64,000 nt of DNA from Ignavibacteriota bacterium. Its GTDB lineage: Bacteria; Bacteroidota; Ignavibacteria; UBA10030. Below are positions 14,106-43,856 of the stretch, piece by piece; position 1 is the first letter of the stretch; the number at the start of each line of letters is the position of its first letter. The stretch is taken from positions 428,530 to 492,529 of the forward strand of contig PMZI01000023.1 in the NCBI GenBank assembly GCA_003170475.1, in the 5' to 3' direction. Both the position numbers and the translations under genes were made by a program. The notes under the pieces are model-generated. The model had not been told where the DNA came from. It saw only the letters and a list, made by a program, of their open reading frames with translations, and did not search any database.

Positions 14106-14134
14106 TTGACAAAGAGCCTTCTTTTGCCAAAGTT
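14106..14134 (+). promoter_or_regulatory. Promoter P1 of first TonB receptor module
   Basis: TTGACA at 14106-14111, a 17 bp spacer, then AAAGTT at 14129-14134. The same arrangement, including the text between the boxes (AAAG-AG-CTT--TTTG), recurs before three other pectin-locus units. It leaves a leader of about 150 nt before the ATG at 14293. Confidence 0.7.
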
Positions 14135-14148
14135 ACGTTGCACCGTAA

Positions 14149-14166
14149 GCGATAAAGTAACCGATT
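14149..14166 (+). promoter_or_regulatory. Putative LacI-type operator O1
   Basis: GCGATAAAGTAACCGATT, about +8 to +25 from the expected start of P1 transcription. It matches the shared element GCGNTAANGNAANCG and has the AANCGNTT-like centre of LacI-family sites. Binding in this position would block the polymerase. Binding itself is inferred. Confidence 0.55.
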
Positions 14167-14292
14167 CCGCGAGGGCGTTGTTCCGAGTTGTGCTCTCTGA
14201 CCCAATCCTTCAAGACGAAGATCATCCAAGAGGCCCTAACGAAAACGGGTGGCAACTGTGCCGCCGCCACATCACTCTGAACTGGAGTTTCT

Positions 14293-17200
14293 ATGAAATC
14301 TTTTCTCTCACTCGCGATTCTCTGCGTCCTGACTCTCGCGATTTCCGCGAGCGCCTTCGGCCAAGGCACGTTGACCGGAGTTGTGACCGATTCTCTCACT
14401 CATGAAAAACTTGTTGGTGTCAACGTTGTTTTGCTTGGTACGGGTATCGGTAACGCAACGAACATCGAAGGTGAATACAAGATCACGAGCATTCCGTTGA
14501 AAATGTACGAAGTACGCGTCTCGTGTATCGGATATGAAGTGAAGACGAGAAGGGTGGATTTCTCGAAGACCACAGATCAGCGATTGAACTTCCAATTGAA
14601 TCAAACCGTCATTCAGGGCCAGGAAGTTGTCATCACCGGTCAGATGCGGGGTCAGGTAGCTGCGGTCAATCAGCAGGTCTCTTCCAAGACCATTGTCAAT
14701 GTTGTTTCGGAGGAGCGGATTAAAGAGCTCCCCGACGCCAATGCGGCAGAGGCAATAGGTCGACTTCCAGGCGTTGCGTTGCAGCGTTCCGGCGGTGAGG
14801 CAAACAAGATCGTTCTTCGTGGAATGAGCAGTGAATTCGGAAGTGTTTCTGTCGATGGCGTTAGGATCCCGCCGACCGATGCCGATTCCAGAGGTGTGGA
14901 TCTTAGCATGGTCTCTCAAGGATCATTGGCCGGCATCGAGTTGTTCAAGGCACTCACGTCGGACAAAGATGCAGATGCAATAGCCGGTACTGTCAATCTC
15001 GTCACAAAGAATGCACCCTCCGAGCGAACAATCCAGGTGGATACCAAAGGCGCATATAATAAACTGAACAAGACCGCAAAACAGTATGATCTTGCCGTGA
15101 AGTACGGCGAACGTTTTTTTGACAATCTGCTTGGGGTCCAGATATCGGGCAACCTTGAACAGAGAGACCGAAGCAGTGAGAATGTTGGAATCGATTATGA
15201 TTTGAACTACGATTCAAAGTTCACCGATTACATTATTACGGATCTCACACTGCAATATGTCGATGAAGTGAGAAAAAGAGGCGGGGGAAGCATACTCCTC
15301 GATATCAACACGCCGGATAACGGCACGATTAAGTTCAGCAATGTGTACAGTAGTACGAGCAGGAACTACATTACCTATAGCAGAAACTATCCGCAAACTG
15401 CAGTGTATGGACCTGTGTACTCGGACAGGGATCAGGAACAGAACATCAACACCTTTAATAGTTCACTCCATGGGAAGAATTACATATTTGGTCTGACGGC
15501 CGATTGGGGCCTGTCCTTTGCTCAATCGCGATCGCAGTACCCGTACGACTATTATATAGACTTCTTTGAGCCATCCAGCAACCTCGTCTCGGGTATGAAA
15601 GCTATTCCGCAATCGAATCTCAAAGGACCGCCGGAATCGTACATCGACTATGCATACAATAATTTCAGTGCGGCATTCCTCGATTGGTCTTATTACCGCG
15701 CTCAGAACAACAGCGACAAAGAGAAGACTGCGTATCTTGATCTCACGAAGAACTACACGTTCGGGAGTATGTTCTTTGGTGAATTGAAAGTGGGGGGGAA
15801 GTACCGACAGAAAGACAGAAACAAAGACCAAAGCCAGTTGACTTCGAATCATGAAATTTTTGGTTTTGATTCCGATCAACGATTACCCGATGGAACTATT
15901 GGCCCCAAAAATTTCGCCGGAAGTCAATTCCCACTACCATCAGCACCCGGCGCATACCCATCCGGAAAGATACTTCTTACGTATTTTCTTGATCCTAGCC
16001 CGCCGGAGAGGAGTCTCTACGACAAGTACCGGCTCTATCCAATGATCACCAATGATGCAATTCGCTCATGGTGGGACATCAACCAGAGCGGTACGAGCGG
16101 ATCAGTTTCAGAATATGTCGTCGATGGTCAGGCTGCGGCTGGTTCCTATGGCGTCGTAGAGCGGGTTTCGGCCGGGTATCTCATGAATACGCTGAACATC
16201 GGACAGGACGTCACCTTCATAGCCGGTGTTCGTGTTGAAAGTGAGAACAACGACTACACGTCAAGATTTTCACCGATACCGCTCTCTGGTTATCCTGCCG
16301 TAGGAGGTGTTTTGAAGGACACGTCCGCAAAGTATTCCGAGGTCGAATGGCTCCCGAACGTCCAACTGGCACTTAAACCTTTTGATTTTATGAATGTGCG
16401 TTTGGCTGCCTATCAAGCGCTCGCCAGGCCCGATTTCAATTACAGGTTGACGGAGGTTGTCGCAAGAAACTCCGCTACGGCGCTTCCGCGTGGAGTTCCG
16501 GCAGAATATGGAACGGCTGTCTATTACGGAAATCCAAATCTGACTGCAGGAAAGGCGTGGAATTTTGAAGTCAACGCTTCATTCTTCAGTAACACCATTG
16601 GCCTGTTCAGCCTTTCGGCGTACTACAAGAACATTGATAACATGTATCATCTTGCCAACTTCATCCTGGTCGAAGGACCTCTGACGGCCAATGGACAGAA
16701 ATATCTCGACGACAACAGCATCAATTGGAAGAATCCTTTTAATTCCAATAGCACGTCCTATTATATTTCCTATCCGTATAACTCCTCGAAGCCGACAAAG
16801 ATTTGGGGATTTGAAATTGAGCACCAGGCCAACCTCGGGTTCCTACCGGGCCTGCTCAAGAATATCGTTCTGTCGTACAATGTGTCCATCGTCCGATCTG
16901 AAACCTATATCAAGTCCTATGCGATGACCGACTCGATTTGGGTTGTCACGCATTCCCGATTCGGCGACCAAACGAATCTCTACTTAACACCAGAGTACTT
17001 CGAACTCAAACAAAAAATGGAGGGGCAACCAGAACTATACGGCAACGTAGCGCTTGGGTATGACATTGGTGGTTTTTCAGCGCGACTCTCTCTCTTTTTC
17101 CAGAGTGAGTATACCTCGGCTTACTCCGCTGACGGGAAAAATGACATCGTAACCAACAAACTGACAAGATTGGATTTAGCGCTCAAACAACAGATCACCA

Positions 17201-17349
17201 GCAACTTGGCCATCATGGTCAATGTGAATAACCTGACAAACGCTGATGAGAGCACTGCATATAAGAGCAGAGTCGCAGGATGGAAGCTTCAGAATTCAAG
17301 TACAAACTACGGTATGACAGCTGATGCAGCAGTACGTCTCACGTTCTAA
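14293..17349 (+). CDS. TonB-dependent receptor with CarboxypepD_reg-like domain, module 1
   Basis: A 1018-residue outer-membrane receptor for energised import, probably of pectin oligosaccharides (inferred from context). Order: signal peptide ending SASAFGQ (1-24); carboxypeptidase-regulatory-like domain with TGVVTDSLTHEKLVGVNVVL (about 25-110); plug with IKELPDANAAEAIGRLPGVAL and IVLRGM (about 120-240); and a long 22-strand-type barrel ending in an aromatic residue (VRLTF). It is a close paralogue of the receptor at 19815, nearly collinear throughout and strongest in the first 240 residues. It is followed after 37 bp by a T9SS beta-helix protein, the position where SusC receptors normally have SusD. 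It is driven by P1 and operator O1. Confidence 0.92.
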   Translation: MKSFLSLAILCVLTLAISASAFGQGTLTGVVTDSLTHEKLVGVNVVLLGTGIGNATNIEGEYKITSIPLKMYEVRVSCIGYEVKTRRVDFSKTTDQRLNFQLNQTVIQGQEVVITGQMRGQVAAVNQQVSSKTIVNVVSEERIKELPDANAAEAIGRLPGVALQRSGGEANKIVLRGMSSEFGSVSVDGVRIPPTDADSRGVDLSMVSQGSLAGIELFKALTSDKDADAIAGTVNLVTKNAPSERTIQVDTKGAYNKLNKTAKQYDLAVKYGERFFDNLLGVQISGNLEQRDRSSENVGIDYDLNYDSKFTDYIITDLTLQYVDEVRKRGGGSILLDINTPDNGTIKFSNVYSSTSRNYITYSRNYPQTAVYGPVYSDRDQEQNINTFNSSLHGKNYIFGLTADWGLSFAQSRSQYPYDYYIDFFEPSSNLVSGMKAIPQSNLKGPPESYIDYAYNNFSAAFLDWSYYRAQNNSDKEKTAYLDLTKNYTFGSMFFGELKVGGKYRQKDRNKDQSQLTSNHEIFGFDSDQRLPDGTIGPKNFAGSQFPLPSAPGAYPSGKILLTYFLDPSPPERSLYDKYRLYPMITNDAIRSWWDINQSGTSGSVSEYVVDGQAAAGSYGVVERVSAGYLMNTLNIGQDVTFIAGVRVESENNDYTSRFSPIPLSGYPAVGGVLKDTSAKYSEVEWLPNVQLALKPFDFMNVRLAAYQALARPDFNYRLTEVVARNSATALPRGVPAEYGTAVYYGNPNLTAGKAWNFEVNASFFSNTIGLFSLSAYYKNIDNMYHLANFILVEGPLTANGQKYLDDNSINWKNPFNSNSTSYYISYPYNSSKPTKIWGFEIEHQANLGFLPGLLKNIVLSYNVSIVRSETYIKSYAMTDSIWVVTHSRFGDQTNLYLTPEYFELKQKMEGQPELYGNVALGYDIGGFSARLSLFFQSEYTSAYSADGKNDIVTNKLTRLDLALKQQITSNLAIMVNVNNLTNADESTAYKSRVAGWKLQNSSTNYGMTADAAVRLTF

Positions 17350-17386
17350 GAGAATCATTCATTCATTTTTTCGGGAGGGCTTCGCA

Positions 17387-19003
17387 ATGAAACACCTATG
17401 GTACTGTGTTGTTATTCTAGTATTGTGGGCGGCTTCCGTTTTCGGTCAGGATTTGACTGTTCCGACGCTCAAAGCTTCGGGCAAATACCTGAACGAGTTC
17501 ATCGCCGCCGATTCGGCAGTAGCCAAGACAGGAACTCGAACGTATATCCTGCAACGTGACAGTATTTATTATGTGAACGCGGTCATCAGAAACATCGGCT
17601 GGACGTTGCGAATCAAAGCCGGAACCAAAGGATACTACAAACCCACCATTTTCCTCAGCACGCCGACCGGGTCAGCGCAAAATCCGGAAGAAATGTTTAA
17701 CGTCAACGGGGACATCTACCTGCAAAACATCCTCGTAGGTGGGTATAATGAACTCACGCCGGCCTTTATCAGCGCCATAAACTCCGCACTCATCTGGACG
17801 GCTGTCGAGAACTGCACCATCGCCGTTGACAGCTGCATCTTCACGAATGTCGGTCAGGCAGCGATACGTACGGTGAGTGCACCTCGAGTCGTCAAAGTCA
17901 CCAACTGCGTTTTCGCCAACATGGGATATGGCGGAAATTATGATCCGGGAAATGGCAGACCCATTGATTTGAGAAACGGCTCGTGCGATTCATTGGTCGT
18001 CGTGAACAACACATTTGTGAACAACATCGACCGTGTTATCCGCCACTATGCCAGCACTGCTGCCATAAAGTACTTCATGTTTGACCATAATACGGTTATC
18101 AACAACTACGCTTTTCACGGCATGTTTGCCTTTGGCATCATGGGTGACAAAGGCATCATCACGAACAACTTGTTTGTCAATCCCTTTACCCTGGGAGTCG
18201 ATACCGATGCCGTGCGTCAGGCGGAGTTTATTGACAGCGGTGAAAAAGATCGTTTTGGACAGCCAAGGATGACATGGATCAATTCCGTGCCGAACACCAC
18301 AACACAGTGGACCATAAGAAACAACTACTACACTGTCTCAACCGTTGAACAGAACTGGTACACGAGGAACACAGCTGCCGGTGTGACCGGCGAAGGTACA
18401 CCGCTGACATGGCACATCAACAGCAAGATCGCAGATTCCGTCAATGCGTTCAAGAAGGTAAGTGTTACGCTGACGAATTCTCCCGAGATCGGAACCGCCT
18501 TTATGGATTGGTACCGATCTCCCACCGGTGCGAACAAAACAAAGGTGTTCTCATCGTGGAAAATGGCAAATGATATCAATCGGGTAAGTTTTGTCTATCT
18601 GACGGATTCACTCAACTGCAAGTACCCGACGAGCGCGAGTATTTATACCGCAGCTGATGGCGGCAAGCCTGTTGGCGCTCTCACATGGTGGAACATGGCA
18701 CTGACAGCCGTGGAAAAGGTCGGGAACCAAGGCGTGCCCGAAACGTTCACGCTCAATCAGAACTACCCGAATCCGTTTAACCCCTCAACGACGCTGCAGT
18801 ACACGATCTCCAAGAGCAGCCATGTTGTCCTTGAGGTGTTCAACGTGCTCGGTCAGTCAGTTGCACGGCTCGTCGATGAACCGTTGGCAACCGGAACATA
18901 CAAGACGACCTTCAATGCATCGAGTTTGAGCTCCGGCGTATATCTGTACAGATTGACGGCTGGTGACTATGTCCAGACGCTCAAGATGGTTTTGATGAAG
19001 TAA
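17387..19003 (+). CDS. Secreted beta-helix protein with T9SS sorting domain, module 1
   Basis: A 538-residue exported protein. Signal peptide MKHLWYCVVILVLWAASVFG, with the start at the ATG 17387 preceded by GGGAGGGCTTCGCA. An in-frame ATG upstream (17324) lies inside the receptor gene. The middle (about 50-420) has the repeating ITNN/VVNNTFVN pattern of a right-handed parallel beta-helix. The last 85 residues are a type A T9SS domain opening with NQNYPNPFNPSTT and ending GDYVQTLKMVLMK, so it should be surface-attached or secreted. I see no catalytic signature of a known lyase or GH family. It is paralogous to the protein at 22932. It may be a surface glycan-binding partner of the receptor, or an unrecognised pectin lyase. 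A strong terminator follows. Confidence 0.85.
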   Translation: MKHLWYCVVILVLWAASVFGQDLTVPTLKASGKYLNEFIAADSAVAKTGTRTYILQRDSIYYVNAVIRNIGWTLRIKAGTKGYYKPTIFLSTPTGSAQNPEEMFNVNGDIYLQNILVGGYNELTPAFISAINSALIWTAVENCTIAVDSCIFTNVGQAAIRTVSAPRVVKVTNCVFANMGYGGNYDPGNGRPIDLRNGSCDSLVVVNNTFVNNIDRVIRHYASTAAIKYFMFDHNTVINNYAFHGMFAFGIMGDKGIITNNLFVNPFTLGVDTDAVRQAEFIDSGEKDRFGQPRMTWINSVPNTTTQWTIRNNYYTVSTVEQNWYTRNTAAGVTGEGTPLTWHINSKIADSVNAFKKVSVTLTNSPEIGTAFMDWYRSPTGANKTKVFSSWKMANDINRVSFVYLTDSLNCKYPTSASIYTAADGGKPVGALTWWNMALTAVEKVGNQGVPETFTLNQNYPNPFNPSTTLQYTISKSSHVVLEVFNVLGQSVARLVDEPLATGTYKTTFNASSLSSGVYLYRLTAGDYVQTLKMVLMK

Positions 19004-19018
19004 CGTGTGGCCTTTCGA

Positions 19019-19050
19019 GGGGCTGGACGAAACCGTCCAGCCCCTTTTTT
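19019..19050 (+). terminator. Rho-independent terminator of module 1
   Basis: A perfect 11 bp stem, GGGGCTGGACG/CGTCCAGCCCC, with an AAAC loop and a run of six T, 16 bp after the stop codon. Confidence 0.92.
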
Positions 19051-19572
19051 ATTTTTGTCCAGTCTGTCCGTGTCCGAGAGAATATGAAAACAGAAGTCAG
19101 AGATGTCGTAAGAAGGGATCCTCGTCAGAAGTTGTCGGCACAGATTCTCTTCATCATCTCACGTTTGCTTTTGACGCTTTGATTCTTGATCAGGGTGATC
19201 CCCAAACCAGGTCGTCCAACCTACCCCTGCATGCGGGCCGCTGTGCCGATCATGTCCGGCTTCTTCGTGTGTATGTTGGGGATTCCGACGACAGCTCTTG
19301 TATTTGGGAGATCGTCGAAGATGTTTTTGAAAGCACGATATTTCACAGCCGCTGCCTTGATCCTCGTTGGTGTCACGCCAGGGATTGTCTCGTACGCGGA
19401 AGAGGCACCTCGTGCGTATGTAAACTCGAAGTCAGTGCTGGCCCGAACCAATAAGTTCTGAGCTCCCAGAGTTAGAGAAGCCACCGTTTTTACAGCGCGG
19501 AATGATGGTACCGGCATTTGCATATATGGGAAGACGGGCAGTTTTTTCCATTCTTTTTCGACTCGAAACCCC
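19051..19572. other. Intergenic spacer between the two receptor modules
   Basis: About 520 bp. Short overlapping frames exist on both strands (plus 19186-19461; minus 19221-19790), but neither has a recognisable domain or clear ribosome-binding site, and the minus frame covers the P2 promoter. They may be remnants of a gene broken when the modules duplicated. I do not call a gene. Confidence 0.35.
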
Positions 19573-19601
19573 TTGACAAAAGAGCTTTGTTTGATTAAAG
19601 T
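19573..19601 (+). promoter_or_regulatory. Promoter P2 of second TonB receptor module
   Basis: TTGACA at 19573-19578, 17 bp spacer, TAAAGT at 19596-19601. It is closely similar to P1 and P3, including the spacer text. Confidence 0.75.
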
Positions 19602-19616
19602 TGTAGCACGCCGTGA

Positions 19617-19637
19617 GCGGTAAAGTAAACGATTAAG
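19617..19637 (+). promoter_or_regulatory. Putative LacI-type operator O2
   Basis: GCGGTAAAGTAAACGATTAA plus a final G, starting 44 bp from the -35 start, the same offset as at P3. It shares GCGNTAANGNAANCG with the other three sites. The core AAACGATT has the central CG usual for LacI-family operators. Confidence 0.6.
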
Positions 19638-19814
19638 CTGATTATGGCGTTGGCCTGAGTCGTTCTGGTGCCGTTCGTCTTCCTTGCCGTAGAAACCTTG
19701 ATGGAAATTTTGCGAAGGAATTTTGCTCAAGACGAGATTCCTCTGAAGAAACACATCCGCTGTGATCGCGCCATGTCCATGATTGAACAAAATCTATTTT
19801 GAAGAGGGATCTCC

Positions 19815-22814
19815 ATGAAAGCACTCACCTCATCATCACTTCTCATCCTGATCGTTCTTCTCGTCCCCGCAATGACATTTGGACAAGCGACATTGTCTGG
19901 TGTTGTCTCCGATTCTCTGACACATGAGAAGCTTATTGGTGTCAACGTCGTGTTGGTGGGAACCGGAATGGGCAATGCAACGAACATTGAGGGTGCTTAC
20001 AGTATTTCTGGAATCCCACTGAAAGTCTATGGGGTGAGAGTATCCTGCATCGGCTACGAGCCAAAGGTGATCCAGATTGATTTCTCCAGAAACACAACAC
20101 GGCGGTTGGACGTCCAGTTGAATTCAACAGTCATTCAGGGTCAGGAAGTCGTTGTGACTGCACAAATGCGCGGTCAGGTCGCAGCGATGAATCAGCAGGT
20201 TGCGTCGAACACCATCATCAATGTTGTCTCAGAGCAGAAAATCAAAGAATTGCCGGACGCCAATGCCGCGGAGGCGATCGGCCGTCTTCCCGGAGTGTCT
20301 CTGCTGCGATCCGGCGGTGAAGCAAACAAAGTTATTCTTCGTGGATTGAGTGACAAGTACACCACCGTAACCATCGACGGCGTGAAAATCGCTGCGACGG
20401 ACGCAGATTCGAGAGGCGTCGACCTGAGCACCATTTCGCAGGGTTCCCTTTCCGGCATCGAGTTGTCGAAGGCGTTGACTCCCGACAAAGATGCGGACGC
20501 CATCGCCGGCACCGTCAATCTCATTACCAAAAAGGCGCCTTCAAAGCGTATGCTACAGGCGGACATCAAGGGAGATTATAACAAGCTGATGAACTCAGCA
20601 AACCAATATGATTTAAGCCTGCGTTATGGAGAAAGGTTTTTTGATAACATCCTTGGTGTACAGCTGAGCGGAAATCTTGAAAACCGGATTCGAAGCAATG
20701 AGCAATCGACCATCAACTACCAGGACCGGTATGATCTCTTTCCGGCGAACTACTTCATCAGCAATTTCAAACTGCGCTTTGTCGATGAAACGAGGAAGCG
20801 CGATGGTGTGGTTCTTCTTTTGGATGTTAATACTCCCGATAGCGGCTCTGTTCGATTGAGCGGCAATTACAACGGAACGCAGCGAAACAGTTCCGCCTTC
20901 ATGAGGAACTACCCTACCAACAACGCCGGAAGCACGCCGGTCTACTATGAAACTGAAGTGTCGGACCAGAAAATCACTGCGTTTAACACCTCTGTGCGAG
21001 GGGAGAATTATCTCGGCGGCCTGGCATTCACGTGGGGCGGGGCCTATGCAAATTCCATCACCGATCTGCCGTTCGATTACTACCTTGATTATTTTGAGGC
21101 GATCGGAAAACGGGACGCATCCGGTCATGCCACCTCCGGCATGGATCTTCCCGGGAATCTCTTCATTCAAACAAATCCAGAAGTCATCATCCCTTATGCC
21201 GTGAACAACTTCGCGGTCGCAGCAATTGACTCAGGGATCTTCAGCACGGAACACAATAGTCAGACCGAGCGGACGGCCTATCTTGACGGGAAGGGAAAAT
21301 ATGGACTAGGAGAGCTGATTTCAGGCGAGTTCAAGATGGGTGGAAAATACAAGTACACCACGAGACAAAAGTCGGCAAGCAGGCTCTTTGCACCGTACTA
21401 CCTGGCTGCCTGGCAACCGAAGGACCTGTCGGGAACACGCTTCGCGTCCTTCTACGCGAGATACGTTGCAAATAACCAGGTGCGCAGCCCTTCGCTGACG
21501 GATTTTCTCGACTCGTCTCCGGCGCAGAGGAACTTGTTTGATTTGTATACACTCAATCCCATGATGAACAAAGATGCTGTACGGGATTGGTACAATCTGA
21601 ATAAGAACGGAACGGCGGCGAAACCCGATTACTTTACGGACAATACGGCGGATTTGGATTACTACGACATCACAGAGCGTCTGGGAGCCGGATATGCAAT
21701 GACGACGACGAATATCGGGCGCGACGTGACATTCATCGCCGGAATCCGCGTCGAGAAAGAATCGGATGACTACCTCTCGAGGTTCGTTCCCGGGACAGGA
21801 GCGCTTGGGGGCTTTCCAACACCGACAGGCCAAGTAAAGGACACCACCACCTCGTATGCCGAAACGATCTGGCTGCCGAACTTCCATTTAACGCTGAGGC
21901 CTTTTGAGTTTCTTAATTTGCGGTTTGCTGCCTATAGAGCTCTCGCCCGGCCAGACTTCAGTGCGAGGTTAGTCAAGCTGTACGGACAGTCGGTAGGCTC
22001 ATCCAACCAGCTGATCGTCGGAAATCCGAATCTGAAATCATCGAAAGCATGGAACTATGAGGTGAACACCTCGGTGTTCAGCAATACCATCGGACTCATT
22101 TCACTCTCGGCATTCTACAAAAACATCACCGACGACCAGCAGCTTCTCAACGCTGCAGGGTTGGTCGGTCCGCGATTTCTGGACAGCCTGGGTATCCACT
22201 GGAACACGGCTTTGATAAAAGGGGGGTATCAGTTGACAGTGCCGTACAATTCTGCACTTCCCACGAAGATCTGGGGATTTGAATTTGAACATCAAGCAAA
22301 CCTGAGCTTCCTGCCGGGGTATCTGCAGTTTCTTGTCTTGTCGTACAACTTCTCGATTGTTCGATCTCAAACACACCTGGTCGGCACAGTGATCGACACG
22401 ACCTATTTTGTCACCCACTCGGAATTTGGAGATATCGTAACTGCAAGTTATACAAACCGCATTGTTGATCGATCTCAGAAACTGGAGGGGCAGCCCGAGT
22501 TCTTCGGAAACGTCGCTCTGGGTGTCGACATCGGTGATTTTTCTGCGCGTATGTCAGTCTTCTATCAGGGCCAGTTTAACCGTTCGTTCTCAGGCGGAGG
22601 ATTGACCGACGGAATTACCGGGCGCTATACCAGATGCGATCTGACAATCAAACAGAGATTCACAGATCACGTCGCGCTGCTTCTGAGTATCAGCAATCTC
22701 TTCAACGTCGAGGAAGACTCGTACACGATCAACAGGGTTTATAATTGGACCCGCCTGAACACAAGTCAACGATATGGAATGACCGGAGATTTTGGAGTGA
22801 GGCTTGATTGGTAG
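19815..22814 (+). CDS. TonB-dependent receptor with CarboxypepD_reg-like domain, module 2
   Basis: A 999-residue outer-membrane receptor, start ATG after AGAGGGATCTCC. It has the same architecture as the receptor at 14293: signal peptide ending PAMTFGQ, regulatory-like domain LSGVVSDSLTHEKLIGVNVVL, plug IKELPDANAAEAIGRLPGVSL with VILRGLSDKYTTVTIDGVKI, then a barrel ending VRLDW. Conservation between copies is highest in the plug and in barrel pieces such as WLPN, RPDF and KIWGFE-EHQANL, and lower in the stretches expected to be extracellular loops. This suggests different ligands (inference). It is followed by a second beta-helix T9SS protein. It probably imports a different pectin-derived oligosaccharide. 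Confidence 0.92.
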   Translation: MKALTSSSLLILIVLLVPAMTFGQATLSGVVSDSLTHEKLIGVNVVLVGTGMGNATNIEGAYSISGIPLKVYGVRVSCIGYEPKVIQIDFSRNTTRRLDVQLNSTVIQGQEVVVTAQMRGQVAAMNQQVASNTIINVVSEQKIKELPDANAAEAIGRLPGVSLLRSGGEANKVILRGLSDKYTTVTIDGVKIAATDADSRGVDLSTISQGSLSGIELSKALTPDKDADAIAGTVNLITKKAPSKRMLQADIKGDYNKLMNSANQYDLSLRYGERFFDNILGVQLSGNLENRIRSNEQSTINYQDRYDLFPANYFISNFKLRFVDETRKRDGVVLLLDVNTPDSGSVRLSGNYNGTQRNSSAFMRNYPTNNAGSTPVYYETEVSDQKITAFNTSVRGENYLGGLAFTWGGAYANSITDLPFDYYLDYFEAIGKRDASGHATSGMDLPGNLFIQTNPEVIIPYAVNNFAVAAIDSGIFSTEHNSQTERTAYLDGKGKYGLGELISGEFKMGGKYKYTTRQKSASRLFAPYYLAAWQPKDLSGTRFASFYARYVANNQVRSPSLTDFLDSSPAQRNLFDLYTLNPMMNKDAVRDWYNLNKNGTAAKPDYFTDNTADLDYYDITERLGAGYAMTTTNIGRDVTFIAGIRVEKESDDYLSRFVPGTGALGGFPTPTGQVKDTTTSYAETIWLPNFHLTLRPFEFLNLRFAAYRALARPDFSARLVKLYGQSVGSSNQLIVGNPNLKSSKAWNYEVNTSVFSNTIGLISLSAFYKNITDDQQLLNAAGLVGPRFLDSLGIHWNTALIKGGYQLTVPYNSALPTKIWGFEFEHQANLSFLPGYLQFLVLSYNFSIVRSQTHLVGTVIDTTYFVTHSEFGDIVTASYTNRIVDRSQKLEGQPEFFGNVALGVDIGDFSARMSVFYQGQFNRSFSGGGLTDGITGRYTRCDLTIKQRFTDHVALLLSISNLFNVEEDSYTINRVYNWTRLNTSQRYGMTGDFGVRLDW

Positions 22815-22931
22815 TGAGCTTGATCCCGTTCCAGCGTGCAGCGCTTGCCGGGTATGAACGAAGAATCGCACACAGAGAACAGCATTTCTAATTACAGATC
22901 TACCACCACAAACAACCGAGGAGATCATTTC

Positions 22932-24632
22932 ATGAAGAACATGCGAACCATGTATTGCATCGTGCTGCTGTTGTTCTTGCTGCCGGTGCTCCTGTTCGGA
23001 CAGGAACTTCGTCTCGTTCCTTATTCCGGTCAGGGGAGCCAGTATCTGAATCAACAGATCGCAGCAGATACCGTGGCGAACGGCAAACTCCCCACCCGTG
23101 TGTATGTTTTGACGCGGGGAGCGCTCTATCTATCGAATGCTGTCTTTACCAATACGGGGGGCTGGGCGTTGAAGCTGAAAGCAAACGACAGCACCACGAC
23201 AAAAAAGCCGGTTATTATGCTGTATCCATCGGGCACAGGCTCCACGCCCTGGAACCCTCCCGGCAACCTCTTTCAACTCGGTGGCAGTTTGTCGATGAAG
23301 AATATTGAAGTGACGGGGTACTATGAGCTCGTCGACACGAATCGTTGGAACATGCAGGGAGCCCTGATTAACATCCCGACAACAACTTCAGGTGTCAGCA
23401 TCACCATTGACAGCTGTATCCTCTCGAACTGCAATGGCAACCATATTCGAACTGATGGTGTCGCCTCGACGATCAAGGTAACAAACACCGTGTTTGCAAA
23501 TCTGGGCTACCTCGGAAGATCAAATTTTGGCGCTGGCAAGGCCATCGATCTCAGAAATGTCACTTGCGATACATTGCTCATGGTAAACAATACGTTTGTC
23601 AACTGGCTGGACCGCATCATCCGTCACTATCCCGCCACGGGAGCTACGAGCACAGGCGCACTTGGCTATTTCCAGTTTGATCACAATACGCTCGTCAATG
23701 GCACGTCGTACCACGGGCTGCTTTCTCTTGGCAGCGTAGGTAGCAAGGTCATTATCACGAACAATCTGTTCTTTGATCCATTCATTCTGGGAAATGACTC
23801 GGATGCGACACGTCAGGTGGAATACATTCCGAGTGGCGAGCTCGATGCGTATGGCGGAGCGCGAATGGCCTGGATTTTCTCCTACCCCAACACTACCACC
23901 GCGTGGTCTATCTCCAATAACTATTATTGCATCTCCGACTCGGGACAGGCGTTCTACAACCAGTTTAAATCTGCTGGTGTCACAGGCGAAGGATCGCCGT
24001 TGACGTGGCATATAAACGGTAAACTCGGAGCCGATTCAGTCAACGCGTTCAAGAAGGTGACGGTTGCACTGAGCAAAGTTCCCGCCCCGATGACACAGCT
24101 TGCGCGATGGTATCGAGCCCCCAACGGTGGGAACAAGCTGAAGAACACTCCGGGCGCATGGACGTACGGTAATGCAACCGATCCCAACGATTATGACCGA
24201 AAGAAGTATGACTGGTTAAGGGACTCGCTCAACTGCGCGTACCCGACGACATCAGCGCTCTACACCAGCGCCGTGAAGGGATTCCCTGTTGGCGACCTGA
24301 ACTGGTTCCCGACCTCAAAGAGTCAGTGGCTCCTGACTGACGTAGAGCCTGTCAACAAGACAGTACCGACAGCATTCACACTGCAACAGAATTATCCGAA
24401 TCCGTTCAATCCCACCACGACGTTTGAATACTCGATTACGAAGAACAGTCACGTCGTTCTCGAAGTCTTCAACGTTCTTGGACAATCGGTTGCACGGCTG
24501 GTCGATGGGCAACTCAATGCAGGAACGTATCGTATTTCGTTCGACGCGTCCCAGCTAAGCTCTGGTGTCTATCTGTACCGGCTGAAGGCGGACAACTTGG
24601 TTCAAACCAAGAAAATGGTATTGATGAAGTAG
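22932..24632 (+). CDS. Secreted beta-helix protein with T9SS sorting domain, module 2
   Basis: A 566-residue exported protein. The ATG at 22932 follows GAGGAGATCATTTC and begins a clear signal peptide ending PVLLFGQ; the frame runs further upstream without a better start. Parallel beta-helix repeats fill residues about 60-440. It shares with the module 1 protein the strings VTGEG-PLTWHIN, DRxIRHY and DSLNCxYPT, so they are paralogues. The C-terminal T9SS domain starts LQQNYPNPFNPTTTFEYSI and ends KKMVLMK. No lyase or hydrolase catalytic motif is recognised. The role is either surface binding for the receptor or an unclassified polysaccharide-active enzyme. The pairing with receptor 2 repeats that of module 1 exactly. 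Confidence 0.85.
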   Translation: MKNMRTMYCIVLLLFLLPVLLFGQELRLVPYSGQGSQYLNQQIAADTVANGKLPTRVYVLTRGALYLSNAVFTNTGGWALKLKANDSTTTKKPVIMLYPSGTGSTPWNPPGNLFQLGGSLSMKNIEVTGYYELVDTNRWNMQGALINIPTTTSGVSITIDSCILSNCNGNHIRTDGVASTIKVTNTVFANLGYLGRSNFGAGKAIDLRNVTCDTLLMVNNTFVNWLDRIIRHYPATGATSTGALGYFQFDHNTLVNGTSYHGLLSLGSVGSKVIITNNLFFDPFILGNDSDATRQVEYIPSGELDAYGGARMAWIFSYPNTTTAWSISNNYYCISDSGQAFYNQFKSAGVTGEGSPLTWHINGKLGADSVNAFKKVTVALSKVPAPMTQLARWYRAPNGGNKLKNTPGAWTYGNATDPNDYDRKKYDWLRDSLNCAYPTTSALYTSAVKGFPVGDLNWFPTSKSQWLLTDVEPVNKTVPTAFTLQQNYPNPFNPTTTFEYSITKNSHVVLEVFNVLGQSVARLVDGQLNAGTYRISFDASQLSSGVYLYRLKADNLVQTKKMVLMK

Positions 24633-24690: not shown

Positions 24691-24774
24691 GTGGACAACG
24701 GTGTCCCTTCCTCGATTTCATCTTAGGGTGTAGTTCAAAGAAGTTGATTCACATCAAAGAGAGTGGAGACTGCT

Positions 24775-26025
24775 GTGATACTTGAGCAATACTCGATCGG
24801 CATCGGCGATAGGTTCGGCCACCAGGGGGCAGCACAACTGTGCGCTTTGCAACAGGCAGAACGTCAGGGTGTAACGATCGTTCCCGTGTGGAACAAATCG
24901 TTTCGTGAACATTCCATTGTGGGCACCTCGCCGACCGATACACGATTAGCGGCGGACAATGCTGTAAAGGAGCGCGGCTGGAAGAACTCATACTACGTGG
25001 ATGCAGACCACATTGGCTTAAAGAATGTTGATTGTTTCATTGACTCGAGCAACTTCTTCACACTGGATGTCGCAGACTACATTGGCAAGGCTGCCGGTGA
25101 GAAAGAGATCGATGCATTTGTTGGGTCAATGTCGAAATACTTGTCGGCTTTCCCAATGCCAGGAGTTCGAACAACAACAAGAGTCACGGAAGAAGACCTG
25201 CTTGCTATCGGCCGGAAGTACTTGTATGCGATCCAAGAAGCCGGAAGGATCTACCGGCACATCGCGGCACAAAAAGGAGTGGATCATTTTGTCACAGAAG
25301 TTTCGACCGATGAGGCAAATGAACCACAATCCCCGGCGCAACTGTTCTTCATTCTGGCGGCGCTTGCGCACGAAGGAGTGAAGGTTCAGACGATCGCTCC
25401 GAAGTTTACGGGAAGGTTTTTGAAAGGAATTGACTACGTCGGCTCCGTTGAGACATTCAGCGCTGAGTTCGAGGAAGATTTGCTTGTCATCGCTCACGCG
25501 GTGAAGACATTTGATTTGCCGAAGAATTTGAAACTCAGCGTACATTCGGGCAGCGACAAATTTTCGCTGTATCCGGTCATCCATCGCGCGATCAAGAAGC
25601 ATAACGCGGGGCTGCATTTGAAAACTGCCGGGACAACCTGGCTGGAGGAGCTCATCGGTCTCGCCATGGCCGGAGGCACAGGGCTCGATACCGCCAAGGA
25701 AGTCTACGTCAAATCCTATGGTCGGATTGATGAGTTGTGCAAACCGTACGAAACAGTTATTGATATCGACAGGGCGAAGTTACCCGATCCGCAGACTGTG
25801 ATGGCATGGACCAGCGACGAGTATGCAAACGCATTGAGGCACAATCAGAAAGATCCACGCTACAATCTACATTTCAGGCAACTGCTTCATGTCGGATACA
25901 AAGTTGCTGCCGAAATGGGAGACAAGTACCTCCAGATGCTCAAAGACTCGCGGGAAATCATCGGGAAGAATGTGACAGAGAATTTGTTCGATCGTCACAT
26001 CCGGCCCATTTTTCTCGGCACCTGA
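24775..26025 (+). CDS. uxaE: Tagaturonate epimerase UxaE
   Basis: A 416-residue cytoplasmic enzyme of the UxaE family, which epimerises D-tagaturonate at C3 to D-fructuronate and so joins the galacturonate and glucuronate routes without UxaB/UxaA. The recognition is by whole-protein resemblance: YSIGIGDRFGHQGAAQL at the N-terminus, TDEANEPQSP, IAPKFTGRFLKGIDYVG, KLSVHSGSDKFSLYP and HLKTAGTTWLEE. The metal ligands probably lie among the conserved Asp, Glu and His residues of these blocks. Two GTG codons are possible starts. I prefer 24775, because GGAG sits 6 bp before it, over 24763. It follows module 2 and precedes the esterase promoter, which fits intracellular processing of galacturonate freed from pectin. 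No uxaC or kdgA is present in the window. Confidence 0.88.
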   Translation: MILEQYSIGIGDRFGHQGAAQLCALQQAERQGVTIVPVWNKSFREHSIVGTSPTDTRLAADNAVKERGWKNSYYVDADHIGLKNVDCFIDSSNFFTLDVADYIGKAAGEKEIDAFVGSMSKYLSAFPMPGVRTTTRVTEEDLLAIGRKYLYAIQEAGRIYRHIAAQKGVDHFVTEVSTDEANEPQSPAQLFFILAALAHEGVKVQTIAPKFTGRFLKGIDYVGSVETFSAEFEEDLLVIAHAVKTFDLPKNLKLSVHSGSDKFSLYPVIHRAIKKHNAGLHLKTAGTTWLEELIGLAMAGGTGLDTAKEVYVKSYGRIDELCKPYETVIDIDRAKLPDPQTVMAWTSDEYANALRHNQKDPRYNLHFRQLLHVGYKVAAEMGDKYLQMLKDSREIIGKNVTENLFDRHIRPIFLGT

Positions 26026-26125: not shown

Positions 26126-26154
26126 TTGACAAATAGTCTTTGTTTTGGTAAAGT
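26126..26154 (+). promoter_or_regulatory. Promoter P3 of the esterase unit
   Basis: TTGACA at 26126-26131, 17 bp spacer, TAAAGT at 26149-26154; same design as P1 and P2. It drives the gene at 26248 and probably those to about 28259. Confidence 0.75.
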
Positions 26155-26169: not shown

Positions 26170-26190
26170 GCGGTAAAGTAATCGTTAAAG
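26170..26190 (+). promoter_or_regulatory. Putative LacI-type operator O3
   Basis: GCGGTAAAGTAATCGTTAAA plus a final G, beginning 44 bp from the -35 start of P3. The first 15 bp match O2 except at one position. Confidence 0.6.
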
Positions 26191-26247
26191 TAAGCATCAA
26201 AACGAACCTCTTCCAAAGATCTTCCGCTCTTCGCCTGTCTCGACCAT

Positions 26248-27252
26248 ATGTATACTCCAAGCAAATCCATTCGCACGCTGTTCTTTACTTCCATCAGCCT
26301 CCTGGCTGTACTGTTTTCCCAACTTTCGGGTCAGCAGAAAGAAATTTCCCGCGATACGTCGTTCACTCTCGACAACACAGCCCCAAAAGTCTACAAACAA
26401 TATCCACACGCCAGACTTGTCGTGGCAATTCTTCCGGACGGTATCGCTGCAGAGGAGAACATTGTCTATGCCCGCTACAAGGAGAGAGAGCTGCATCTTG
26501 ATCTCTTCTCCCCGCGTGAGAAAGGCGAAGCATTCCACCCCGGGGTCATCCTGATTCACGGAGGCGGCTGGCGCTCCGGTCATCGTCAAATGGAATGGCC
26601 GATGGCTCAGTATCTGGCTGCACGGGGATATGTGACGGCGACAGTAGAGTATCGTCTCTCGATGGAGGCTCGATATCCCGCAGGAGTCTACGATCTCAAA
26701 GCAGCGATTCGATGGATGCGTGCGAACGCTGCAAGACATCACATTGACCCGAACAAGATCGCGGTGTACGGCTGTTCGGCCGGAGGTGAACTCGCGGCAT
26801 TTCTTGGCACCACGGGCGACGTAAAAAAATTCGAGGGGAGCCCTGAAGATACAACGATCTCAACCAGAGTGCAGGCAGTTGTCGATGTTGACGGCGTGCT
26901 CGACTTTACGACTCCCGCAGAAAGTGCGAAGGACGGCGATCCGACAAAACCATCAGCAGGAAAATCATGGTTTGGTGCATCCTATGCGGAGAATCCGGAA
27001 ATCTGGAGAGAAGCCTCGCCCATCAATTATGTCGACGCAGGGGCGGCACCCATCCTGTTTGTCAACAGCTCGCTGGAACGATTCCACGCGGGCAGAGATG
27101 AAATGATTGGACAGTTGAATGAGCTCCGGATCTATTCCGAAGTGCATACGATTCCGGATACTCCGCATCCATTTTGGCTGTTTCATCCGTGGTTTGAAGA
27201 AGCCTCGGGATATATCGTGACATTTCTCGACAAGACACTCAAAGGCAAATAA
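26248..27252 (+). CDS. Exported alpha/beta-hydrolase esterase
   Basis: A 334-residue secreted esterase of the hormone-sensitive-lipase/BD-FAE-like type. An N-terminal hydrophobic signal (about residues 10-28) is followed by oxyanion motif HGGGW (104-108) and nucleophile elbow GCSAGG with Ser177. A later TPHPFW block probably carries the catalytic His, and a DGVLDFTTP/PILFVNSS region the acid. Family members deacetylate plant polysaccharides or remove feruloyl groups. In this locus, removal of acetyl groups from pectin is the best guess. It is the first gene behind promoter P3 and is followed after 32 bp by a rhamnogalacturonan acetylesterase, so the two should be cotranscribed. The ATG has no strong ribosome-binding site. 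Confidence 0.85.
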   Translation: MYTPSKSIRTLFFTSISLLAVLFSQLSGQQKEISRDTSFTLDNTAPKVYKQYPHARLVVAILPDGIAAEENIVYARYKERELHLDLFSPREKGEAFHPGVILIHGGGWRSGHRQMEWPMAQYLAARGYVTATVEYRLSMEARYPAGVYDLKAAIRWMRANAARHHIDPNKIAVYGCSAGGELAAFLGTTGDVKKFEGSPEDTTISTRVQAVVDVDGVLDFTTPAESAKDGDPTKPSAGKSWFGASYAENPEIWREASPINYVDAGAAPILFVNSSLERFHAGRDEMIGQLNELRIYSEVHTIPDTPHPFWLFHPWFEEASGYIVTFLDKTLKGK

Positions 27253-27284
27253 TTATCCTTCTAAGGCGGGTCATTCGAAACTCT

Positions 27285-28259
27285 ATGAAGAGCCTTCTCA
27301 CGTTCTTCCTCCTGATACTCTTCAGCGCCGCGTCGCTGGTCGCTGAATCTGGAATCGCCGTCGACGCAAAGGCCAAGATGCTGGTTGCCACAGCCGGGAT
27401 CGACTATCAATGGTATCGCGATGGAAAAGTCGTCGCTGGAGAAATCGGGCAGACGTTGGGTGTAAGCGAATCAGGAATCTACGCCGTTGCATACACCGAT
27501 GTTTGCGGTAGACGCAAACTTCAGAACGCGCGCGTTGAGGTGTCAGGTACGAAGATTGTCAAAGTGTACTTGATTGGTGATTCAACGATGGCAGACTACA
27601 CCCTTGATGCCGACTACAAGGCGAAGCGCTTTCCCATCACAGGGTGGGGACAGGTGTTTCAGGCATTCATGAGTTCGGATAGCTTGTTCAAAGTTCGCAA
27701 CATCCTGAAGGCGGATAGTGTGGTCGTGGTCGATAAGGCACGAGGAGGACGGAGCACTCGAACGTTTTTTGAGGAAGGAAGATGGTCAGAGGTCTGCAAG
27801 TCGCTCGAGGCGAACGACCTGGTCCTGATCCAGTTTGGGCACAACGATGCTGCGAAAGACAAACCGGAACGCTATGTCAACGTCGAGGGATACAAGGAGT
27901 ATCTGCGTCTGTTTGTCAATCAGGCCCGCGAAAAGGGAGCGGTTCCTATTTTGTTGACTCCTGTGAATCGGAACTATCCATGGGCCGACGGAAAACTCTC
28001 GAATGTGCACGGAGAATACCCTGATGCCGTCAAACAAGTCGCGAAAGAATTGAATGTGCAGATCATCGACCTGACTCAGCTCTCCATCGACTTCTTCACG
28101 TTGAAGGGTCAGGAATATGTAAGCAGTCATTATTTTATGAATTTTGCCGCAGGGCTCTATGAAGGATATCCCAATGGGGGCAAGGACAATACGCATTTTC
28201 AGCCTGAAGGAGCGGTAGAAGTTGCCCGGCTCGTATTTCAGGCGATGGCCGGCCTGTGA
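27285..28259 (+). CDS. Rhamnogalacturonan acetylesterase (SGNH/CE12 type) with N-terminal Ig-like domain
   Basis: A 324-residue exported SGNH hydrolase that removes acetyl groups from rhamnogalacturonan I. Signal peptide 1-20. A small Ig-like domain (about 24-88: DYQWYRDGKVV...SESGIYAVAYTD) precedes the catalytic domain. Block I is YLIGDSTMADY with nucleophile Ser100. GGRST follows, block III is FGHNDAA (Asn), and the C-terminal DNTHFQPEGA gives the Asp-His pair. These four blocks are the standard CE12 set. The extra N-terminal domain is unusual for this enzyme and may bind carbohydrate or act as a spacer. It is in the P3-driven unit behind the alpha/beta esterase. A second enzyme of the same family, built differently, lies at 32181. 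Confidence 0.92.
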   Translation: MKSLLTFFLLILFSAASLVAESGIAVDAKAKMLVATAGIDYQWYRDGKVVAGEIGQTLGVSESGIYAVAYTDVCGRRKLQNARVEVSGTKIVKVYLIGDSTMADYTLDADYKAKRFPITGWGQVFQAFMSSDSLFKVRNILKADSVVVVDKARGGRSTRTFFEEGRWSEVCKSLEANDLVLIQFGHNDAAKDKPERYVNVEGYKEYLRLFVNQAREKGAVPILLTPVNRNYPWADGKLSNVHGEYPDAVKQVAKELNVQIIDLTQLSIDFFTLKGQEYVSSHYFMNFAAGLYEGYPNGGKDNTHFQPEGAVEVARLVFQAMAGL

Positions 28260-30900: not shown

Positions 30901-31944
30901 GTGAAACGTAGAGCGCATATAACCCTTGATGACATCGCCAAGAAGGTGAAAGTCTCCCGGGTTACAGTCTCGAAAGCACTTCGGGGTCATCCTGATATAT
31001 CCGAGAAGACATCGAAACTCGTGCGGAAGGTTGCCAACGATCTCGGCTACAGTCCGAATTTCATCGCAAGAAACCTTTCAGCACGAAGATCCAACATGCT
31101 CGGGGTCGTTGTTCCAAAGATCGCGCACTTCTTCTTTAGCTCTCTTATCGAATCGATCTACAATGCGGCTTTCGAAAAAAACTATGAAACAATCCTGACG
31201 GTTTCGCAGGAGAATGCGGATCGTGAAAAGAAACATATCCAGACCCTTGTCTCCATGCGTGTTGATGGAATCATTATATCGGTTTCTCAGGAGACGAAAG
31301 ACGTGGAAATCTTCAAGTGGATCAGGAAGATGGGGATCCCGGTCGTGTTTGTTGATCGCATGCCATACCCTCCCATTGAGGGTTTCAGCACCGTGCAGGT
31401 TGATGACAAAGGCGGAGCACGCCAGGTGGTCGAGCAGGCAGTGAAGGCAGGATACCGAAAAATGGCGATGATCGGTGGCAATCCGTCGATTAACATTGGC
31501 AAGAATCGCCAGATTGGATTTGAGGAATCGTTGGCGCAACATCAGCTTCCGGTGAAACCCGAGTGGATTGTACATGGAGGATTCGGCAAGGAAGATGGCT
31601 ACCGAGGATTCAAAAAGCTATGTGAAAACGGTGATCGACCGGAGTTCGTCTTTGCGATCACATATCCGGTTGCCCTGGGAATCTATGAAGCCGCAAAAGA
31701 ACTCGGACTTCGTATTCCCAATGATATTGACATCATCTGCTGTGGAGAAAGCGACATGATTAGCTTCCTTCATCCTTCATTGAGTTGTGTCAGTCAAAAC
31801 CCGCAGGAATTGGGAACGTCAGCAGTCAAAACAATGCTCGAGGTTATTGAGCGTCCTGATGAGATTCCGGAGCGCCATGTGGTGGTTCCAACACAACTGA
31901 TCCTGCGGGAGACCGGACTGGGAAAAATGCGGGTGGGAGACTAG
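30901..31944 (+). CDS. LacI-family transcriptional regulator, likely of the pectin locus
   Basis: A 347-residue regulator. The N-terminal helix-turn-helix ITLDDIAKKVKVSRVTVSKALRGHPDIS is followed by the hinge region LGYSPNFIARNLSARRSNMLGVVVP. The rest is a periplasmic-binding-protein-like effector domain (VDGIIISVSQE, IPVVFVDRMP, MAMIGG, PNDIDIICCGESDM). The start is a GTG preceded by GGAAGGAACTGCCAC. It is the only LacI-type regulator in the window and lies inside the pectin locus, so it is the prime candidate to bind the repeated operator elements at 14149, 19617, 26170 and 43836 (inference). The effector would be a galacturonate or rhamnogalacturonan fragment or phosphorylated intermediate. 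A perfect hairpin follows the gene. Confidence 0.93.
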   Translation: MKRRAHITLDDIAKKVKVSRVTVSKALRGHPDISEKTSKLVRKVANDLGYSPNFIARNLSARRSNMLGVVVPKIAHFFFSSLIESIYNAAFEKNYETILTVSQENADREKKHIQTLVSMRVDGIIISVSQETKDVEIFKWIRKMGIPVVFVDRMPYPPIEGFSTVQVDDKGGARQVVEQAVKAGYRKMAMIGGNPSINIGKNRQIGFEESLAQHQLPVKPEWIVHGGFGKEDGYRGFKKLCENGDRPEFVFAITYPVALGIYEAAKELGLRIPNDIDIICCGESDMISFLHPSLSCVSQNPQELGTSAVKTMLEVIERPDEIPERHVVVPTQLILRETGLGKMRVGD

Positions 31945-36672: not shown

Positions 36673-36829
36673 ACACCGTCGCTCGCACGCTGGATAGGCG
36701 ATGTTGAAGCAGAGGATGGGCCCAATGAAAGGTGCTCGCTCCATTGCTCGCCAACAGGACAATCGAGGATCAGTTCGATACTGGCGGCTCGCAATGACAG
36801 TTTGGCTAAACGAAATCTGAAGGAGAAAC

Positions 36830-40053: not shown

Positions 40054-40074
40054 AAACATCACGGAGGTTTGAGT

Positions 40075-41445: not shown

Positions 41446-41453
41446 GGTAATCG

Positions 41454-42710: not shown

Positions 42711-42775
42711 ATGTTGCACTCAGTGGCGAAGGAAAACGCTCAGAAAACATCTAGTCGGGAAAAGGAGAGTTCACC

Positions 42776-43642
42776 GTGAAAAGAAAGAGCATTCTCTTGT
42801 TGATCATAGTGATTTGTTCGGGGATGACGATGAGCCATGCACAACAAGTCGTACGACTTCGGCCGGGGCTTGAGGGGGCAGCAGACAAGGATACACCGAC
42901 ATTGACTGTGTACTTACCTGCTGCAGACAAGGCGACGGGAGCAGCGATCATCATCTGTCCTGGTGGTGCATACAGGGGGCTGGCGAAACACGAAGGTGAA
43001 GGTTACGCACAGTTCTTGACGCCGTATGGAATCACTGCGTTCGTGCTGAGATACCGGCTCGGTTCAGACGGATACAAATACAAGGAGATCTCCGCGGACG
43101 CCGCGAGAGCAATGCGAATTGTTCGCGCAAACGCAGAGCGGTGGCATCTCAATCCTCATCTGATTGGCATAATGGGTTCGTCTGCAGGAGGACACCTTGC
43201 CTCAACGTTGATGACGCATTGCGATGCCGGCGATTCAACCTCAAACGATTATGTCGAGCGCGTCAGTTCTCGTCCGGATTTTGGCATCCTGTGTTACCCC
43301 GTGATCTCGATGGGTGACATTACGCACAAGGTTTCTCGCGAGCAGTTTCTCGGTACCAGTCCATCTCCAGCGCTGATAGCGCTCTATTCAAACGAGTTGC
43401 AGGTGACCCCGTCAACGCCGCCGTGTTTTCTGTTTCACACATCTGAAGATCAGGCTGTCAGCGTGGAAAATAGTCTCAACTTCGCCAAGGCGCTGCAGAA
43501 GAATGGTGTCCCGTTCGATTTGCACATCTATGAACATGGACGACACGGATTGGGCGTGGGAGATGTCGCCCCGTTTACAAACGCGCATCCATGGACAAAG
43601 GACCTTTTGGTATGGCTGAAAGGGAGGGGGGCGATTAGATAG
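42776..43642 (+). CDS. Exported alpha/beta-hydrolase, acetylesterase-like
   Basis: A 288-residue secreted esterase. GTG start after AAAGGAGAGTTCACC. The signal peptide ends SHAQQ (about 23). Oxyanion motif CPGGAYRGLA (61-70), nucleophile elbow GSSAGGH with Ser136, acid region SEDQAVSVENS, and His in EHGRHGLGVG. This is the BD-FAE/acetylxylan-esterase-like group common in polysaccharide utilisation loci. It removes acetyl or other acyl groups from pectin or hemicellulose (substrate inferred). It ends the operon that began with GH28 at 36830 (65 bp gap to CE8). It is distinct from the esterase at 26248, sharing only the fold and elbow. Confidence 0.87.
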   Translation: MKRKSILLLIIVICSGMTMSHAQQVVRLRPGLEGAADKDTPTLTVYLPAADKATGAAIIICPGGAYRGLAKHEGEGYAQFLTPYGITAFVLRYRLGSDGYKYKEISADAARAMRIVRANAERWHLNPHLIGIMGSSAGGHLASTLMTHCDAGDSTSNDYVERVSSRPDFGILCYPVISMGDITHKVSREQFLGTSPSPALIALYSNELQVTPSTPPCFLFHTSEDQAVSVENSLNFAKALQKNGVPFDLHIYEHGRHGLGVGDVAPFTNAHPWTKDLLVWLKGRGAIR

Positions 43643-43787
43643 ATGAAGCAGACCAGGTTGAGAGAACAATGACCCGCAAATGGTCTGGAAAGACTCTTTC
43701 AGAAGACGAGTGTGAAATGGAATCGTGTCACTTTTGACACTCGCCGCCCAAAAAGGAAGATATTAATGAAAGGTGTTTTGATTTTTC

Positions 43788-43816
43788 TTGACATCGTCAC
43801 CTGAAATCTCTAAGTT
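43788..43816 (+). promoter_or_regulatory. Promoter P4 of the second GH28 unit
   Basis: TTGACA at 43788-43793, 17 bp spacer, TAAGTT at 43811-43816. Same geometry as P1-P3, with a different spacer sequence. It leaves a leader of about 180 nt to the ATG at 44000. Confidence 0.65.
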
Positions 43817-43827
43817 TGCATCAGCGA

Positions 43828-43856
43828 TTGCGTTAGCGTTAACGCAACCGGTTAAG
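43828..43856 (+). promoter_or_regulatory. Putative LacI-type operator O4 with added inverted repeat
   Basis: From 43836, GCGTTAACGCAACCGGTTAA plus G matches the shared operator pattern and contains the palindrome AACCGGTT. Overlapping it, TTGCGTTA (43828-43835) and TAACGCAA (43840-43847) form an 8 bp inverted repeat with a 4 bp gap, a second possible LacI-type site not seen at the other three promoters. Confidence 0.6.

Follow-up and report, generated by a model that had tools for sequence, protein, structure and literature searches.

Background

Local sugar regulons of the LacI family are the closest described counterparts of the system reported here. According to the account in PMC4052901, 1251 of 1303 LacI motifs are palindromes of even length (16-22 nt), a central CG being present in 1173 of these, and autoregulation is given for 72% of the LacI proteins studied. 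The present report concerns a pectin locus in a stretch of 64,000 nucleotides from an Ignavibacteriota bacterium (GenBank assembly GCA_003170475.1, contig PMZI01000023.1, positions 428,530 to 492,529 of the forward strand), referred to below as the window and numbered from its first letter. Four transcription units of this locus share a promoter-like sequence and a CG-N10-CG element, and the comparisons of sequences described below make it quite likely that this element serves as operator for the LacI-type product of gene 30901. The protein would block the start of transcription until it is released by a pectin breakdown product.

The locus resembles the LacI-family local sugar regulons of PMC4052901 in that a regulator lies beside its likely target sugar genes, that the upstream element has invariant CG steps, and that the regulon is small; it is unlike the motifs described there in having two CGs 12 bp apart, a weak dyad and extra 12-bp units. 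In Bacteroides, which belong to a related phylum, UxaR, KdgR and UxuR are LacI-family proteins for galacturonate and glucuronate, the galacturonate branch of pectin use being under LacI-family control there (PMC3878776, PMC4052901). Compared by description, these three are listed for monosaccharide (uronate) pathways, whereas the likely targets here are receptors, esterases and polygalacturonases. Hybrid two-component system (HTCS) regulators of Bacteroides, such as HTCS_Rgu-1 for pectin, offer a second parallel, namely repeat-type sites controlling pectin loci with TonB receptors; the HTCS_Rgu-1 sites are however described as pairs of 12-bp sites 9 bp apart that membrane two-component proteins read, whereas abutting 12-bp units and a LacI-type protein are found here (PMC3878776). 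Within the LacI family, CytR, whose sites are flexible, provides an example of half-sites in direct-repeat arrangement, although it works with CRP on sites of weak consensus and the sites considered here are strongly conserved (PMC3454398). CcpA on crevar sites also departs from the standard LacI dyad, but crevar is made of two inverted repeats with a variable spacer, whereas the 12-bp step is constant here (PMC5263246).

Control of polysaccharide loci in Ignavibacteria seems to be hardly described, no such regulon being apparent from the titles or beginnings of abstracts of the few open-access papers listed on the subject. Judged in the same way, none of the open-access papers listed for tandem or 12-bp direct-repeat LacI operators deals with a LacI ladder, and no relevant open-access paper was present among the matches listed for TAAAGTAA with operator.

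Results and discussion

Recurrence of the promoter and element

The sequence-only reading of the window had proposed four TTGACA boxes, each followed after exactly 17 bp by an AAAGTT- or TAAAGT-like hexamer (Table 1), and then by GCGNTAANGNAANCG at 14149, 19617, 26170 and 43836, i.e. 43, 44, 44 and 48 bp from the start of the -35 box. All these positions and spacings are exact, and the description of the element as mostly followed by TTA is fair (TTC, TTA, TTA, TTA). In the genome-wide scan suggested by that reading, the composite TTGACAN{17,19}AAGTTN{6,26}GNTAANGNAA had 4 matches in the 4.08-Mb assembly, which are the four promoters alone and not random positions, and none in the reversed control. 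Since this string was written from the four sites, their recovery is by construction, unlike the lack of any additional match, and the real test is provided by other genomes.

Within the assembly, GCGNTAANGNAANCGNTT had 3 exact matches, all at the pectin locus, the fourth site (26170) differing at the last T. Used alone with up to two mismatches it was uninformative (100 matches vs 160 in the reversed control). The four promoters aside, no TTGACA was found by script within 70 bp upstream of the one-mismatch places (L004, L005, L007-L012) and none was seen at the other places among 30 of the 100 matches that were inspected, most of which lie in long open frames; the remaining 70 were covered by the composite scan. 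The hope that the motif would yield further members elsewhere in the genome was disappointed: the assembly, which is 96% complete, has no other composite match, so that the regulon found here is the locus itself.

Searches in the order fixed only TTGACA and the element, and the -10 box was not asked for. Of the 32 family genomes, 14 contain the pattern TTGACAN{22,46}CGNTAANGNAANCG, at 19 places in all, against a single control place; of the 98 order genomes, 37 contain it, at 47 places, against 4 control places in 3 genomes. When the promoter was not required, the element alone (CGNTAAAGTAANCGNT) was found at 17 places in the 32 family genomes, vs 8 in the control; 15 of the 17 have TTGACA at the right distance, one (G017) has TTGACT with the same spacing and precedes UxaE, GH28 and GH88 genes, and one (G014) is without promoter boxes.

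Removal of three dubious places with no proper core or -10 (G001, G040, G097) and of two overlapping duplicates from the 47 order places left 42 distinct promoters. At 36 of them the first gene is of pectin type: a TonB receptor (19), GH28 (11), PL9 (3), a BD-FAE esterase (2) or UxaE (1). The other six precede a sodium symporter (1), genes having only matches of the type IX secretion system (T9SS) tail type in Pfam (2, one of which scores below the cut-off of that tail), a receptor about 1.1 kb downstream (1) or a contig end (2). The design of promoter and element is kept in dozens of related genomes, mostly before pectin-type genes, and the association with pectin genes that was proposed from the window thus recurs across the order.

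In one genome (G022, L168:1603-3675), the promoter and element stand ahead of a sodium:solute symporter, so that an inner-membrane carrier may belong to the regulon in some species.

Promoter geometry was analysed on 40 non-redundant sites from the order and the class (49 sites before thinning). In 27 of the 40, TAnnnT follows TTGACA after exactly 17 bp, other spacers from 13 to 21 accounting for 0-3 sites each, and the base preceding TTGACA is C in 39. Because this -10 spacing and this C are conserved, the promoter is supported. Measured from the -10, the first CG of the element comes 2-20 bp downstream, in a search range that allowed -1 to 23; the distance is 2 bp in 5 sites (all of family f6), 6-8 in 17, 13-16 in 11 and 18-20 in 7. 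The sites therefore overlie the predicted transcript start and the first bases, which would be the position of a repressor.

Architecture of the element

Thinning of 41 segments below 75% identity, with L164 (G001) left out, gave an alignment of 32 sites with the consensus aGTWAN-CG-NTAAAGTAAN-CG-NTWAAGT. Among direct-repeat periods of 4-18, the best was 12. The search pattern fixes two CGs 12 bp apart and so favours this period, but 12 was still the best of 4-20 after dropping pairs of search-fixed positions (0.06 vs -0.94 for the next). All 40 sites have the two CGs 12 bp apart, as the search required. Half-patterns holding the left CG (18 places in 15 genomes; control, 1 place) or the right CG (21 places in 17 genomes; control, 2 places) have a second CG 12 bp away at every place, these searches being dependent on the first pattern in that they recover mostly the same promoters. 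Extra CGs are commonest at offsets -6 (9 of 40), +24 (8), -12 (6) and +48 (6) from the first CG, for a background mean of 1.3; offset +36 occurs in 3 of 40.

The PurR-like spacing of the outer CGs is the model for a dyad axis on the AG between them. LacI-type dyads on CG1, on this AG and on CG2 were compared; the means on the three axes were 6.0, 6.6 and 5.1 of 11 complementary pairs, none being clearly best and the best axis differing between the genus of the bacterium and the others. The counterpart of element 4 in G028, before a GH28 gene (L174:14462-14487), differs from the other aligned sites in forming a perfect palindrome of 26 bp. Direct repeats with a long spacer, of the Bacteroides HTCS/SusR type, were not found, as the units abut at 12 bp.

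Element 3 of the window consists of two units and element 4 of three CG steps, hence the repeat extends beyond the AANCGNTT core, which makes up only part of it. This core had been taken in the sequence-only reading as typical of LacI-family operators; the core itself is present, but judging from the alignments the element looks like a 12-bp-period repeat CGNTWAAGTWAN rather than a clean dyad on one CG.

The LacI-type protein and its link to the sites

The product of 30901 carries the N-terminal helix-turn-helix of the LacI family (PF00356, 49.6 bits for a cut-off of 27) and a sugar-binding domain (PF13377, PF00532 and PF13407 above cut-off). It matches CcpA (1rzr) over nearly its full length, and among LacI proteins of known structure CcpA and PurR are closest to it in sequence. 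Orthologs (47-93% identity) were found in 38 of the 98 order genomes, the next LacI proteins listed reaching at most 42%; the 93% identical protein is encoded by an Ignavibacteriales metagenome-assembled genome. In all 34 aligned orthologs (47-93% identity, own protein included) the recognition helix reads VTVSK, preceded by R or K in 30; the contrast with paralogs is drawn against one paralog only. The hinge helix reads A[RS][NS]L in the 34 sequences, and the leucine of this helix enters the minor groove in LacI-family proteins.

Site and ortholog occurred together in 30 of the 98 genomes, the site alone in 7, the LacI gene alone in 8 and neither in 53 (Fisher 1.4e-11). Without the three dubious sites the numbers are 28, 6, 10 and 54, and at the genus level, again without dubious sites, 15, 3, 5 and 32 (p 7e-7). 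Six site-only genomes are reliable. In two of them the contig breaks off next to the site within a piece of a LacI gene (G063, 75% over 124 aa; G069, 45% over 96 aa); G019, G074 and G090 have a completeness of 55-79%, and G035 is a genuine exception. Site and LacI gene share a contig, at a distance of 1.4-17 kb, in 19 of the 30 order genomes having both (G063 and G069 counted). Protein clusters were built from the fetched site or LacI loci, retaining those present in at least 3 genomes and leaving out open reading frames (ORFs) of less than 70 codons or overlapping longer ones; LacI is the sole regulator recognised by Pfam among the resulting 24 clusters, of which that of 48365 has no Pfam match.

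The LacI-type gene noticed inside the locus is thus confirmed by PF00356, and its ortholog goes with the site across the order, exceptions existing. Exceptions apart, the regulator stands beside the targets and co-occurs with the sites as in a local regulon, and by these comparisons the LacI protein at 30901 fits as the binder of the elements.

Proposed repression and alternative explanations

In the favoured explanation, each promoter (CTTGACA, 17 bp, TAAAGT-like -10) has the CG-N10-CG repeat right behind it, and the LacI-type protein 30901 would bind this element at about +1 to +25, where it could repress by a roadblock or by blocked promoter escape. The inducer would be a galacturonate-type sugar, and the receptors, esterases and polygalacturonase of the locus would be switched on together. 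No site lies directly before 30901 itself; genes of the same strand run on from the start of unit 3 to 43642, and the repressor gene might be read from promoter 3 and so be part of its own circuit. The observation of the shared design is confirmed, and its interpretation is supported with an amended operator model; binding, repression, inducer and autoregulation are inferred.

Several results weigh against this explanation. According to PMC4052901, a LacI operator is as a rule an even dyad centred on CG, whereas the best dyad axis here pairs only 5.1-6.6 of 11 positions on average (0.41-0.51 with search-fixed pairs dropped, chance being about 0.25). The species compared are related, so that the Fisher values overstate independence. 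In one genome that is 100% complete (G035), a site is present but no close LacI ortholog, the only LacI protein there being a different one on another contig. Conversely, 10 of 38 LacI-bearing order genomes are without a reliable site, and scans with a position weight matrix (PWM) of the stretches fetched around their LacI genes, several of them on short contigs, found no promoter-linked one. The genome of the window itself encodes two further LacI proteins that score above the family cut-off, on other contigs. Outside the order, the strict composite was not enriched by count (37 places in 34 of 295 genomes vs 30 control places), and the LacI ortholog did not separate genomes with sites (8 of 11) from hand-chosen controls (7 of 11).

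The 11 genomes with sites come from the 12 of the 34 outside-order site genomes that have the exact core CGNTAAAGTAANCG, G235 being left out; the ortholog was found in G348, G282, G234, G149, G195, G155, G113 and G213 and not in G214, G339 and G254. PWM scans of stretches around LacI genes or sites, outside the order and in LacI-holders without a site, gave 37 matches vs 2 in reversed sequence (37 stretches, 590 kb). Among the LacI-bearing controls, G122, G148 and G166 have no strict match but variant ladders behind CTTGACA, G156 has a weaker ladder behind TTGACT, and G141, G179 and G323 showed no ladder in the PWM scan of the fetched stretches.

The site of G035 (L135:3479) is a two-unit one, ahead of GH28.

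The best surviving alternative keeps the design as a pectin operator but has it read by a different regulator, for example a binder of direct repeats, the LacI protein being merely a neighbour in the locus. In its favour, a direct repeat of period 12 gives the element its best score and a dyad a poor one, G035 has its site without the ortholog, and in Bacteroides a pectin regulon is described as read by HTCS proteins on direct repeats (PMC3878776). Against it, the 24 clusters as delimited above contained no second regulator family that could be recognised, and while the two 12-bp sites of HTCS_Rgu-1 are separated by a 9-bp spacer, the units here abut behind the -10, which is a repressor's place; we therefore hold this alternative to be improbable.

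It is considerably harder to sustain that the element is a mark of the transcript start, i.e. an initial transcribed or leader RNA signal, and not a protein site. Its location inside the predicted transcript, 2-20 bp behind the -10 (the search having allowed -1 to 23), would suit such a signal, as would the element-only scan of the 32 genomes, in which 16 of 17 places fall within that range. Its distance from the -10 varies however by up to 18 bp, it may repeat in 12-bp steps or read nearly alike on both strands (43836; L174), and it accompanies pectin loci that bear a LacI gene, all of which makes this alternative very improbable.

A chance likeness of promoter-like boxes in intergenic DNA, to which the frequency of TTGACA alone (55 in the window, 45 expected) and of the motif alone with 2 mismatches (no commoner than in the control) could lend colour, is refuted by the composite scan of the assembly (four matches, all at the locus, none in the control) and by the scan of the 98 genomes (47 vs 4 places), and retains practically no probability.

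Returning to repression by the LacI-type protein, a more specific form of it would be a pectin repressor kept across the order, and probably the class, that reads a ladder of abutting 12-bp units (CGNTWAAGTWAN) in place of a single dyad; over the transcription start, LacI-type dimers would then share half-sites, either arranged head to tail or settling in alternative registers. We put this forward as a speculation that is rather unlikely to hold.

Features of the locus

The coordinates of the four units and of their promoters and elements are given in Table 1. The pectin locus contains GH88, GH43, GH28, Pel9A-like, pectinesterase and UxaE genes (Pfam). The start taken for the unit 4 gene (44000) is an inner ATG within the ORF 43895-45406.

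Table 1. Coordinates of promoters, operator-like elements and genes in the window
Feature	Position	Strand	Basis or remark
Promoter 1: TTGACA, 17 bp, AAAGTT	14106..14134	+	-10 is the weakest among the four
Operator-like element 1 (GCGATAAAGTAACCGATT), upstream of TonB receptor gene 14293	14149..14166	+	exact match
Unit 1: TonB-dependent receptor (14293-17349) and T9SS-tailed protein (17324-19003)	14293..19003	+	Pfam
Promoter 2: TTGACA, 17 bp, TAAAGT	19573..19601	+	
Operator-like element 2 (GCGGTAAAGTAAACGATT)	19617..19634	+	exact match
Unit 2: TonB-dependent receptor (19815-22814) and T9SS-tailed protein (22836-24632)	19815..24632	+	Pfam
Tagaturonate epimerase UxaE, after unit 2	24763-26025		Pfam
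Promoter 3: TTGACA, 17 bp, TAAAGT	26126..26154	+	
Operator-like element 3, two 12-bp units (CGGTAAAGTAAT, CGTTAAAGTAAG)	26170..26196	+	
Unit 3 start: BD-FAE esterase (26248-27252) and GDSL esterase (27285-28259)	26248..28259	+	Pfam
LacI-family regulator, candidate binder for all four elements	30901..31944	+	PF00356 and sugar-binding domain, orthologs, recognition helix
Promoter 4: TTGACA, 17 bp, TAAGTT	43788..43816	+	
Operator-like element 4, three CGs in 12-bp steps (43825, 43837, 43849)	43824..43853	+	
Unit 4: GH28 polygalacturonase-type enzyme	44000..45406	+	Pfam

In units 1 and 2, the receptor is followed by a protein of 560-600 aa (17324-19003; 22836-24632) whose sole Pfam match is the T9SS sorting tail. 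This pair was seen again in many related loci, and the tailed protein occupies the spot expected for a SusD-type partner. A four-gene block at 45477-53407 encodes a TonB receptor, an 804-aa protein without any Pfam match, a PorV-like protein and a second outer-membrane protein, and is found as a block in several related pectin loci. Two ORFs of PfkB-type sugar kinases with similar terminal residues lie at 14-907 and 5527-6720; the first begins close to the start of the window, and its match is confined to the later part of the family.

Conclusions

The regulon is a variation on a known type of sugar regulon, with an amended operator model. If the explanation is right, a single search string tells which loci of an order respond to pectin, CTTGACA, 17 bp and TAnnTT become a usable promoter model for this bacterial group, and a regulator-operator pair is open to direct testing. 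The 12-bp ladder raises the question of how a dimeric LacI protein reads such a repeat, and the reading of a ladder of abutting units would, if true, be a way of recognising operators that is new to the LacI family.

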